Assembly: GCF_003568845.1 (NCBI RefSeq)
Contig: NZ_CP030126.1
Location: 782,501 to 846,500 of the forward strand
DNA from: Indioceanicola profundi
GTDB taxonomy: Bacteria > Pseudomonadota > Alphaproteobacteria > Azospirillales > Azospirillaceae
Reading direction: 5' to 3'
DNA: 64,000 nucleotides
Under the pieces are notes generated by a model. The model saw only the letters and a list, made by a program, of their open reading frames with translations, searched no databases and was not told the origin of the DNA. The translations under genes and the position numbers were made by a program. Numbering within the stretch: position 1 is the first letter of the stretch; the number at the start of each line of letters is the position of its first letter. This document shows, in pieces, positions 21,255-24,253 of this stretch.

Positions 21255-21614
21255 ATGAGCTGGACGGACGAGCGGGTGGCAAAGCTGCGCGAACTCTGGG
21301 GACAGGGGATGAGCGCCAGTGAAATCGCCGATCTCCTTGGCGACATCACCCGCAACGCGGTAATCGGCAAGGCCCACCGGCTCGGCCTCTCTGGCCGGCC
21401 GTCGCCGATCAAGAAGAAAGAAACCAAGGGCGCGACGATCCTTTCGCTGACCGAGCGCATGTGCAAGTGGCCGGTCGGCGATCCGAAGAGCCCGGATTTC
21501 CATTTCTGCGGCAAGCAGGCCCATGCCGGCCTGCCTTACTGCGCAGAGCATGCGGCGCTCGCCTACCAGCCCGCCAAGCGGCGGGATGAGGAGCGGAAGG
21601 TCAGCGTCGCCTGA
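21255..21614 (+). CDS. gcrA: GcrA cell-cycle regulator, short form
   Basis: Transcription factor that binds RNA polymerase sigma-70 holoenzyme and activates CcrM-methylated promoters in Alphaproteobacteria. The N-terminus SWTDERVAKLRELW with SEIADLLGDITRNAVIGKAHRLGL is the helix-turn-helix, and the cysteine-bearing end CKWPVGDPKSPDFHFCGKQA with GLPYCAEH is the sigma-interaction domain. At 119 residues it is clearly shorter than Caulobacter GcrA (about 173) because the linker is short; both functional ends are present. The ATG at 21255 follows GAAGGGGG. A terminator follows at once. Confidence 0.93.
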   Translation: MSWTDERVAKLRELWGQGMSASEIADLLGDITRNAVIGKAHRLGLSGRPSPIKKKETKGATILSLTERMCKWPVGDPKSPDFHFCGKQAHAGLPYCAEHAALAYQPAKRRDEERKVSVA

Positions 21615-21748: not shown

Positions 21749-22318
21749 ATGAATGGGGATGCGGCCGTTCTGGCCCGGCTGAACGACCTGCTGCAACTGG
21801 AATGCGACGCGCTGGCCTCCTACCATCTGGCGATCACGTTGTTGCGGTCGCCGGAGCACCGCGCGCCCATGCAGGACTTCCTGGCCGACCATGAGCGGCA
21901 TGTGCGCGACCTCACCGCCATGATCCATGGCCGTGGCAGCCTGGCGCTACGGCTGCCGCACATCCCCACCGGAATGTTCAAGGTGGCCGTTCAGGCCGCG
22001 GGCGCGCTGGGGGACGAGCGGGCGGTGCTGCTGGCCTTCCGGGCGAATGAGCAGCAGGCCAGGGACAAATATGCCCGCGAGGCCGGCATGAACCAGCCGC
22101 CGGAGGTCGCGGCCCTTCTCAGCCGGCATGCGGATGACGAGGCCAGACATTTCGACTGGGTCTGCGCCACGCTGGATCGGCTGGGCGTGGGAAGCGGCAC
22201 GGCGGTGGGAACCGTGGTGGGCCTGTTCTCCAGCTTTCACGGCGCTGCCGCAAACGCGGTGGAGGCGGTGGGGCGCTGCGGCCTGGAAATGGCCTACCGC
22301 ATGACGCGCCCCACCTGA
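21749..22318 (+). CDS. Ferritin-like four-helix-bundle protein (DUF2383/PA2169-like)
   Basis: A 189-residue protein dominated by helices with the residue pattern of a ferritin-like di-iron bundle: ECDALASYH, DHERHVRDL, RANEQQARDKY and DDEARHFDW place Glu and His at regular helix positions, including ExxH. A C-terminal glycine/alanine-rich segment (GTAVGTVVGLFSSFHGAAANAV) is hydrophobic and may associate with membrane. The ATG at 21749 has a perfect AAGGAGG upstream. Similar proteins are stress-induced in Pseudomonas and others; the exact role is unknown. Its neighbours on the right are small stress-type proteins. Confidence 0.72.
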   Translation: MNGDAAVLARLNDLLQLECDALASYHLAITLLRSPEHRAPMQDFLADHERHVRDLTAMIHGRGSLALRLPHIPTGMFKVAVQAAGALGDERAVLLAFRANEQQARDKYAREAGMNQPPEVAALLSRHADDEARHFDWVCATLDRLGVGSGTAVGTVVGLFSSFHGAAANAVEAVGRCGLEMAYRMTRPT

Positions 22319-22327
22319 GCCGATCGG

Positions 22328-22597
22328 TCAGCCCTTGCGGATGCCGGTGTCCTTGCTCTCGCCTCCATCCTGGGCGGGACGGGAATAGCGCGGCTCCGCC
22401 TCCGACTGGGCCTGGTCGGCATCGCCGGAGTGGCGGCGGCCGACTTCCCCGCCTTCGCGGGCGCGGCGGGCATGTTCCTCGGGCGTGCTGGACAGGCCGG
22501 CGAAGCCGCCGTCGGGCGCCTTGTGCAGGCCGTCCTTCGGCACATCCTTGCCGTCGCCGATGCCCTCGGAATGGGGCTGGTGGCCGGTGCGTGTCAT
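22328..22597 (-). CDS. Small hydrophilic protein with a KGG-like stress motif
   Basis: An 89-residue, strongly charged protein without hydrophobic segments. The segment GGFAGLSSTPEEHARRAREG followed by GEVGRRHSG resembles the Con-10/GsiB KGG repeat (GFA...P...A..GG), here with EGG in place of KGG and a single unit. AGGAGAG lies five bases before the ATG at 22595-22597. It ends ten bases from the convergent ferritin-like gene and is divergent from the next small gene. KGG proteins are desiccation and general-stress proteins in many bacteria; this assignment is by eye. Confidence 0.72.
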   Translation of the reverse strand: MTRTGHQPHSEGIGDGKDVPKDGLHKAPDGGFAGLSSTPEEHARRAREGGEVGRRHSGDADQAQSEAEPRYSRPAQDGGESKDTGIRKG

Positions 22598-22670
22598 CTG
22601 GACTCTCCTGTTCCGGTGGATGTGCGCTGCCAACAGGGGCGGGCCAAGGAGGTTGCCCCGCTGGCGGCCC

Positions 22671-22695
22671 GGAATGATCCGTAGCCTCCGCCGTT
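22671..22695 (+). promoter_or_regulatory. EcfG-type general-stress promoter
   Basis: GGAAT (22671-22675), 16 bases, CGTT (22692-22695), against the alphaproteobacterial EcfG consensus GGAAC-N16/17-CGTT. It points at the small gene starting 50 bases downstream. Confidence 0.6.
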
Positions 22696-22745
22696 GATCC
22701 CTGTAGACCGACGCAAACCGAATCGGATGCCCGGAGGGAGAGATC

Positions 22746-22961
22746 ATGCCGAACGACCAGAAGTCCCGTCCCGAGGAGCGCCCCGCGGAGAAACACACGG
22801 GTCAGGGCGACAAGCCGGGTGCGGGCGCCCAGCGCACGGACATGGATCACACGCCCGGCGACGGCACCCTGCAGGGCGCCACCCCGGCCGGCCTGACCGC
22901 CGATGAGCTGCGCAAGCGGGCGGAGGATACCGACCGCACGTCCGAACCGGGGACGGGCTGA
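22746..22961 (+). CDS. Small hydrophilic protein, probable stress-induced
   Basis: A 71-residue protein, almost entirely polar (PNDQKSRPEERPAEKHTGQG...), predicted disordered except for a short helix TADELRKRAEDT near the end. No cysteine and no membrane segment. GGAGGGAGAG lies just before the ATG at 22746. It has an EcfG-like promoter 50 bases upstream, so I infer general-stress induction. Family not recognised. Confidence 0.7.
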   Translation: MPNDQKSRPEERPAEKHTGQGDKPGAGAQRTDMDHTPGDGTLQGATPAGLTADELRKRAEDTDRTSEPGTG

Positions 22962-22966
22962 ACCCC

Positions 22967-23010
22967 TGGAAAGAAAACGGGCGGCACCCTCTGCGGCGCC
23001 GCCCGTTCCC
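22967..23010 (-). terminator. Rho-independent terminator of icd
   Basis: AACGGGCGGC pairs with GCCGCCCGTT (22976-22985 and 22998-23007). Read on the minus strand the stem is followed by TTTTCTTT, 26 bases beyond the icd stop. It may also stop the small gene on the plus strand. Confidence 0.82.
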
Positions 23011-23035: not shown

Positions 23036-24253
23036 TTAGAGCCCCATCTCCTTCTTCAGATTCTCGTCGATCTTGGCCAGGAAGTCCTGGGTGGTCAGCC
23101 AGGGCTGCTCCGGCCCGATCAGCAGGGCCAGATCCTTGGTCATGAAGCCGGCTTCCACCGTCTCCACGCAGACCCGCTCCAGCGTCTTGGCGAACAGGAT
23201 GACTTCCGGCGTCTGGTCGAACTTGCCGCGATATTCCAGGCCCCGGGTCCAGGCGAAGATGCTGGCGATCGGGTTGGTGCTGGTCGGCCGGCCCTTCTGG
23301 TGCTCCCGGAAGTGGCGGGTCACGGTGCCGTGGGCGGCTTCCGCCTCCACCGTCTTGCCGTCGGGGGTCATCAGCACGGAGGTCATCAGACCCAGGCTGC
23401 CGAAGCCCTGGGCAACCAGATCCGACTGCACGTCGCCGTCATAGTTCTTCGCCGCCCAGACGAAGTTGCCGTTCCACTTCAGGGCGGAGGCGACCATGTC
23501 GTCGATCAGGCGGTGCTCGTAGGTGATGCCCTTCGCCTCGAACTGGTCCTTGAACTCGGCGTCGAACACTTCCTGGAACAGGTCCTTGAAGCGGCCGTCA
23601 TAGGCCTTCAGGATCGTGTTCTTGGTGGACAGATAGACCGGATAGCCGCGCTGCAGGCCATAATTCATGCAGGCCCGGGCGAAGCCGCGGATCGATTCGT
23701 CCACATTGTACATGCCCATCGCGATGCCCGGCCCGTCGAAGTCGAAGACGGTGTGCCGGATGTTGCTGGTGCCGTCCTTGCTGGTGAAGGTGATGGACAG
23801 GCGGCCGGCGGACGGGATGATGAAATCGGTGGCCTTGTACTGGTCGCCGAAGGCATGGCGGCCGATCACGATCGGCGCCGTCCAGTTCGGAACCAGACGC
23901 GGCACGTTCTTGCAGATGATGGGCTCACGGAAGACGGTGCCGCCCAGGATGTTGCGGATCGTGCCGTTCGGCGACCGCCACATCTGCTTCAGGCCGAACT
24001 CCTCCACCCGCGCCTCGTCGGGGGTGATGGTGGCGCACTTCACGGCGACGCCGTACTGCTTCGTGGCCTCCGCGGCCTCCACAGTGACCTGGTCGTCGGT
24101 CTTGTCGCGGTTCTCAACGCCCAGATCGTAGTACTTCAGGTCCACATCCAGGTAGGGAAGGATCAGGCGGTCCTTGATGAACTGCCAGATCACGCGGGTC
24201 ATCTCGTCGCCATCCATCTCGACGATCGGATTTACGACCTTGATCTTGGGCAT
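23036..24253 (-). CDS. icd: NADP-dependent isocitrate dehydrogenase, eukaryote-like type
   Basis: TCA-cycle enzyme making 2-oxoglutarate and NADPH. The 405 residues match the homodimeric type found in mitochondria/cytosol of eukaryotes and many Alphaproteobacteria: [11 protein letters not shown]-like start ([16 protein letters not shown]), substrate block [29 protein letters not shown], and the NADP block [19 protein letters not shown] followed by [16 protein letters not shown], with the Arg-His pair that contacts the 2'-phosphate. I start at the ATG at 24251-24253, preceded by GGGAGAG; the longer frame upstream is not coding. It faces a second, distinct IDH 2 kb away. Confidence 0.95.

Follow-up and report, generated by a model that had tools for sequence, protein, structure and literature searches.

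What binds together the three genes that lie between gcrA and the isocitrate dehydrogenase gene of the alphaproteobacterium Indioceanicola profundi, and do they belong to the general stress response? A preliminary description of this DNA had seen there an EcfG-linked divergent pair of small stress proteins next to a ferritin-like protein, and we have followed it up in the window, that is, the whole stretch of 64,000 nucleotides analysed (contig NZ_CP030126.1, positions 782,501 to 846,500), which comes from a genome of 5.37 Mb in four contigs. We favour, with a probability of about 0.6, the reading of this locus as a small general-stress cluster in which an EcfG-controlled, small, disordered protectant stands beside a ferritin-like oxidative-stress protein. 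The layout first described is correct in coordinates and orientation: the two small genes diverge, a ferritin-like reading frame adjoins them, and the gene for the 89-residue protein sits between the other two. The features are the following.

21255-21614: gcrA (Pfam GcrA, 151 bits)
21749-22318, plus strand: gene for a DUF2383-like, ferritin-like protein of 189 residues (Pfam match below cut-off, AlphaFold2 model, alignment with PDB 4etr)
22328-22597, minus strand: gene for a glycine-rich, hydrophilic protein of 89 residues, called KGG-like in the preliminary description (open reading frame, one convincing homologue)
22448-22507, minus strand: stretch GFAGLSSTPEEHARRAREGG of the 89-residue protein, KGG-like by eye with EGG for KGG (sequence, aligned with the homologue)
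22632-22656, minus strand: weak EcfG-like site GCAAC-N16-TGTT, starting 59 bases before the 89-residue gene (score 12.0, shuffle p about 0.2)
22671-22695, plus strand: EcfG-like promoter GGAAT-N16-CGTT, whose first base lies 75 bases 5' of the start codon (ATG, 22746) of the 71-residue gene
22746-22961, plus strand: gene for a small, probably disordered protein of 71 residues from an unassigned family (open reading frame, homologues, AlphaFold2)
22851-22958, plus strand: conserved C-terminal module of the 71-residue protein, TPGDGTLQGATPAGL..ELRKRAE...PGTG (alignment A4, 25 members)
23036-24253, minus strand: isocitrate dehydrogenase gene (Pfam)

An inverted repeat seen by eye 3' of the 71-residue gene (AACGGGCGGC / GCCGCCCGTT, 22976-23007), between the convergent genes, could be a terminator.

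Neither small protein matches Pfam, NCBIfam or PHROGs, in line with the statement that both were unassigned, and the first point to settle is whether the 71-residue protein is real. A single-sequence search found matches at E <= 0.01 in 14 of 59 genomes, the source genome included, of which 13 were accepted, the match in L022 being dropped as a chance hit devoid of the core. Scanning a wider set of genome contigs, from which the window's own records may be missing, confirmed 36 loci out of 100 candidate stretches, mostly in Azospirillum and also in Oleisolibacter, Aerophototrophica, Arenibaculum, Roseomonas/Pararoseomonas and metagenome-assembled Rhodospirillaceae or Rhodospirillales. At the level of the class, the family occurs in at least four of 387 genomes, the source genome included, in a thin sample with at most 15 candidates scored per genome; it is also found in 11 plasmid records, where, in an incomplete gene table, two list a hypothetical protein, five have no listed gene and four are unannotated. 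Compared with the window over a core of 25 codons, 40 homologues show 202, 136 and 417 changes at codon positions 1, 2 and 3, and this excess at the third position is the pattern of a coding sequence. Judged by these sequence comparisons, the 71-residue protein represents a real, conserved family and is more than a chance reading frame. Among the papers listed by our literature queries, which used neither motif nor locus tag, none deals with it. For the analyses below we used a set of 41 loci, made up of L030-L065 together with L009 (the window's own), L010, L011, L016 and L021; seven duplicate contigs (L013, L014, L015, L017, L018, L019 and L020) were left out, L012 was omitted although it is no duplicate and has a matching site, and the plasmid matches H1-H11 and the loci from the 387-genome class sample were kept apart. 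Start codons were placed by the best Shine-Dalgarno match, except for L056, where we chose a downstream ATG manually.

Members of the family vary at their N-terminus, which is prone to disorder, and share a conserved C-terminal module with the consensus TPGDGTLQGATPAGLSxxELRxRAE...PGTG, in which G40, P47, G49, E54, L55 and G69 are invariant among the 25 aligned members. Cysteine, tryptophan and tyrosine are absent from all 41 members, which hold one phenylalanine in total. The AlphaFold2 model of the window protein (pLDDT 59.4) has a single helix at residues 52-62, and is consistent with disorder everywhere else. It is worth mentioning that in L048 a separate small hydrophilic reading frame (MSTDKRYGDQ...) precedes the family gene (L048:4711-5147), while at L045:4887-5147 an N-terminus resembling that frame is, by eye, fused to the C-terminal module in one frame of 86 residues.

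This architecture invites an explanation other than a protectant, namely that the last 36 residues are the functional part and dock on a specific partner (an enzyme, the ribosome, the nucleoid or a protease), the N-terminus being a mere tether and any protection indirect. We regard it as possible, if rather unlikely. In its favour, conservation is much stronger in these 36 residues than elsewhere in the protein, 23 of the 25 aligned members end in GT[GS], the length of the family (51-88 residues) varies mostly at the N-terminus, the predicted helix falls where the local confidence of the model is highest, and the L045 fusion shows the module behind an N-terminus resembling the L048 frame; against it, no single neighbour was seen across all clades and the source genome shows no further copy of the module. 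In a bolder version, which strikes us as clearly unlikely, the general stress response in relatives of Azospirillum and in Roseomonas-type bacteria would add the module, with its near-invariant end, to disordered tethers as a docking tag; if true, EcfG would in this way direct a disordered protein to a single, specific target in the cell.

The protectant reading draws in part on composition. Glycine content and GRAVY are 14.1% and -1.56 for the 71-residue protein and 18.0% and -1.43 for the 89-residue protein, so that both, and 39 of the 41 family members, lie beyond the hydrophilin limits of more than 6% glycine and a GRAVY below -1. The hydrophilin criteria given in PMC4190154 also include a mean hydrophilicity above 1, and the Hopp-Woods means of the two window proteins, 0.81 and 0.77 in that order, fall below this value. 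The glycine and GRAVY limits are also passed by 22 of 159 six-frame reading frames of 60-120 residues; among the 54 gene-like frames of the window, when the 89-residue gene is taken with its longer start (156 residues), the two small proteins are the only ones to pass them.

The preliminary description had placed GGAAT-N16-CGTT before the 71-residue gene, and the match at 22671-22695 on the plus strand is indeed exact. A promoter sequence alone is weak evidence; the window site becomes significant because it is conserved before homologous genes. We scored sites of the type GGAA[C/T]-N15-18-[C/G]GTT in the 120 bases before each start. Between -85 and -45, a score of at least 13 is reached at 30 of the 41 family loci, window included, and by 51 of the 2050 segments that were drawn from these loci as a control; for a score of at least 16 the counts are 15 of the 41 and one of the 2050. 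In a second control, upstream of reading frames of at least 200 residues, eight of 418 regions reach 16, five of them within the same interval. Eleven of the 41 upstream regions are without a site of score 13 at the right offset. Since the loci are related, their upstream sequences were clustered, and one or more such sites are present in ten of 17 clusters; those without are L010, L011/L059, L016, L021/L064 (best at -34), L031, L049 and L054. At three loci (L030, L032 and L043) the site coincides in part with the stop codon or 3' end of the ferritin-like gene; its conservation there may be coding-driven and is not independent evidence, and nine of 17 clusters remain once theirs is set aside. 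The Azospirillum lipoferum-type cluster has GGAAC-N16/17-CGTT or -GGTT in 13 of 13 members and GGAAC recurs in several singletons, while the -35 box reads GGACC in brasilense-type loci and GGCAT or GCAAC in Roseomonas-type and metagenome-assembled ones.

How well does the window site fit what is known of EcfG? Its -10 box is CGTT at the usual spacing of 16-17 bases, and its -35 box is GGAAT, not GGAAC. According to PMC7083833, the conventional motif is GGAAC-N16-CGTT, the commonest -35 boxes are GGAAC and GCAAC, and the -10 box is flexible in Sphingopyxis granuli, where the AAC of the -35 box is near-invariant, with 3 of 79 boxes deviating; the site list of Sphingomonas melonis also has GGACC, GGATC and GCATC (PMC6599016). 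Genome-wide, GGAAY-N16/17-CGTT occurs 113 times and its reversed form 93 times; GGAAT-N15-18-CGTT occurs 89 times against 36, a ratio we set aside since the reversed control may carry a dinucleotide bias. By eye, GGAACTCCGTAGCCTTTCCGCCGTT at C1:2307318-2307342 of the source genome has a spacer largely common to that of the window site, GGAATGATCCGTAGCCTCCGCCGTT. One may suppose that these promoter-like sites are coincidental, or serve another ECF sigma factor, and that the 71-residue gene is constitutive or otherwise regulated. The GGAAT box of the window, the GGACC of the brasilense-type copies, the small genome-wide enrichment of the GGAAY pattern and the presence, on contig 2, of a second ECF-type sigma factor that likewise has a PhyR_sigma2 match all lean that way; we consider it very unlikely nonetheless, as position and spacing recur in ten of the 17 upstream clusters and in every member of the A. 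lipoferum-type one.

The genes of the general stress pathway are present in the source genome. PhyR has a PhyR_sigma2 match of 62.8 bits and a receiver domain of 49.5 bits (L115), and a sigma gene (L114) has a PhyR_sigma2 match of 37.6 bits for a cut-off of 27; we call the latter EcfG-like on the grounds of this match and of its neighbourhood, which includes a protein with a NepR motif about 1.2 kb away (27 bits, cut-off 25.7) and, some 400 bases upstream of the sigma gene, a GGAAC-N16-CGTT site (L114:3591). The NepR-motif protein (L114:5713-5958; about 1635.7-1636.0 kb on C1) shows at its N-terminus a sub-threshold zf-HC2 match, which is unusual for NepR, and a second, weak NepR-like match lies at C1:2232560. 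Given the partner-switch mechanism of PhyR, NepR and EcfG (PMC8999054), these products may well act on the promoter of the 71-residue gene.

For the 89-residue gene the supposed EcfG link finds no support. The GCAAC type of -35 box in its upstream site is known from EcfG regulons (PMC7083833); about 20% of shuffled sequences score as high as this site, and the 200 bases before its homologue in genome G027 hold no EcfG-like site (best score 10.6, p about 0.47). The association of the pair with EcfG is supported, in silico, for the 71-residue gene with its 30 of 41 family upstream regions, and is not supported for its neighbour. Nor is the order of the divergent pair conserved: G027, the sole other genome found with both genes, has the homologue of the 89-residue protein on contig 99 and that of the 71-residue protein on contig 1. 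Immediately upstream of the former is a gene for a protein with ribosome-hibernation (S30AE) and cold-shock domains (L117:4479-5361).

That homologue is also the only convincing one, with 50% identity. The core common to both reads DGGFAGLSSTPEEHxxRAREGGxxGRRHxGD, with 4, 4 and 12 changes at codon positions 1, 2 and 3 over 31 codons. The single-sequence search matched three of 59 genomes, own included, the third match (G031) being a frame of 641 residues without the motif, which was dropped. Within the order, four of 82 genomes, own included, have a match at E <= 0.01, those besides the own and G027 being weak (G092, a frame of 609 residues; G087, with an internal stop); within the class, with at most 13 candidates scored per genome, at least two of 387 do, the own and a weak match with an internal stop in G301. 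A plasmid search gave no match.

The single GGFAGLSSTPEEHARRAREGG stretch, with EGG at the KGG position, is in the protein as first described. That the protein belongs to the KGG family was not borne out. The Pfam family PF10685 gave nothing at E <= 10 on the protein (hmmscan; more than 20.4 bits required), and nothing at E <= 10 in a six-frame search of the source genome, while the same search matched 8 of 59 genomes, none of them the source. A local KGG profile scored -2.0 bits, a value that 156 of 500 shuffles equalled or passed (-1.6 bits and 71 of 500 for the G027 homologue), and hhalign returned a probability of 0.7%; one EGG stands in the place of a repeated KGG tripeptide. On these four negative profile tests, one half of what the preliminary description had said would refute its reading, we do not file the protein under KGG. 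As the local profile was built solely from relatives' KGG units and the hhalign alignments were shallow (2 and 7 rows), a very remote relation stays conceivable, and a role similar to that of KGG proteins is possible.

The ferritin-like protein scores 27.0 bits (E 5.3e-06) against Pfam DUF2383 (PF09537), under the cut-off of 30.8. Its AlphaFold2 model (pLDDT 83.3) is a helical bundle with a further C-terminal helix at 152-186, and a ferritin-like fold is predicted. Foldseek found no match to the model at E <= 0.001; structural alignment of its candidates placed Dps, PA2169, bacterioferritin and YciF chains at Z 15.5-17.1, Dps at Z 17. PDB 4etr (PA2169, DUF2383) aligns with an rmsd of 1.2 over 121 residues, 28% identity and Z 15.5; YciF (2gs4), less close in sequence, aligns with Z 16.1, an rmsd of 2.2 over 145 residues and 10% identity. 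The encapsulin cargo protein EncB (NF058679) was considered and rejected, at 17.8 bits far below the cut-off of 90. Counting the source genome, 15 of the order's 82 genomes have the gene, one match being weak (G004; L113) and left out of the neighbourhood, promoter and alignment sets; L109 is also out of the alignment (A5), in which the row of L100, a locus cut by a contig end, is shifted and was kept for structure prediction. The best EcfG-like site before the window gene scores 12 (p about 0.2), and we do not claim EcfG control for it; the other 13 genes show no consistent EcfG-like site, L101 having one at -85 (p 0.015).

A 71-residue family gene lies within the fetched 1.5-kb flanks of the ferritin-like gene in four of the 14 genomes, own included, and is absent there in ten. 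Three Azospirillum species (A. rugosum, A. canadense and A. soli) have the ferritin-like gene first, with 36-52 bases between its stop codon and the start of the family gene. Elsewhere the family gene has as neighbours genes for citrate synthase and response regulators (two Azospirillum plasmids with annotation) and, of a stress type, a Mn catalase in L051 and a YflT stress protein about 1.3 kb off in L063.

In enterobacteria, yciG and yciF belong to one operon, yciGFE. That the three window genes would form such a unit, as under sigma-S, with the 89-residue gene as the counterpart of yciG, is highly improbable: a small glycine-rich protein does stand beside a ferritin-like one, YciF is among the structural matches and YciG is RpoS-controlled and disordered (PMC7161692), but the 89-residue protein fails the KGG profiles and lacks a KGG repeat, it is convincing in two of the 82 genomes of the order, so that the three others with the ferritin-like and 71-residue pair (G068, G083 and G084) are without it, and PA2169 is nearer in sequence than YciF.

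Returning to the EcfG-controlled protectant beside a ferritin-like protein, it is tempting to propose the following course of events. Stress would activate PhyR, whereupon the NepR-type anti-sigma factor would release EcfG; the freed sigma factor would transcribe the 71-residue gene from the promoter at 22671-22695, and a small, mostly disordered, glycine-rich protein, free of cysteine and tryptophan, would accumulate in the cytosol. The N-terminal part, variable and hydrophilic, may serve as a solvent-holding shield and the C-terminal module, a short helix with a PGTG end, may touch a partner or a surface, while the neighbouring ferritin-like protein would handle iron or peroxide under the same stress. 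Site conservation, the regulator genes, the composition, the ferritin-like neighbour in three Azospirillum species and the other stress-type neighbours argue for this reading as far as sequences can tell; the GGAAT box, the slight genome-wide enrichment, the 11 family loci without a site, a ferritin linkage that is not general and a hydrophilin-like composition that is common among random frames weigh against it. Whatever the exact role, the family is now defined and offers a conserved module as a target for mutation, along with an EcfG-like promoter that is conserved too. Among its bearers are species of Azospirillum, which are plant-associated and whose survival of drying matters for inoculant use.

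The kind of system described here is already known, the 71-residue family and its C-terminal module being the part that Pfam, NCBIfam and PHROGs leave unassigned. The window proteins resemble hydrophilins by a glycine content of 14-18% and a GRAVY of -1.4 to -1.6, and differ from them by their lower mean hydrophilicity, their protectant role being putative. With the KGG family (PF10685; YciG, YmdF, PA2146) the 89-residue protein shares small size, richness in glycine and one GFA...GG stretch, whereas it has EGG, a single stretch, and a distance from GFA to GG two residues longer than in relatives' KGG units. Like yciGFE, with the KGG protein YciG and the ferritin-like YciF, the locus joins a small glycine-rich protein to a ferritin-like one in a general-stress context, but neither small protein here matches KGG and the sigma factor is another than sigma-S. 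The ferritin-like protein is akin to the DUF2383 proteins (PA2169, PDB 4etr) in predicted fold and sequence, while its Pfam score lies below the cut-off and it has an extra C-terminal helix. In comparison with the EcfG (ECF15) regulons of S. granuli and S. melonis, the window site differs in its -35 box, GGAAT; the GGAAC-like -35, the N16-17 spacing, the CGTT -10 and the PhyR, NepR-motif and EcfG-like sigma genes are shared. Many general-stress genes of Alphaproteobacteria encode small hypothetical proteins, several of them in the S. melonis list, and the EcfG-dependent genes of that species include hypothetical and DNA-binding ferritin-like proteins (PMC6599016).
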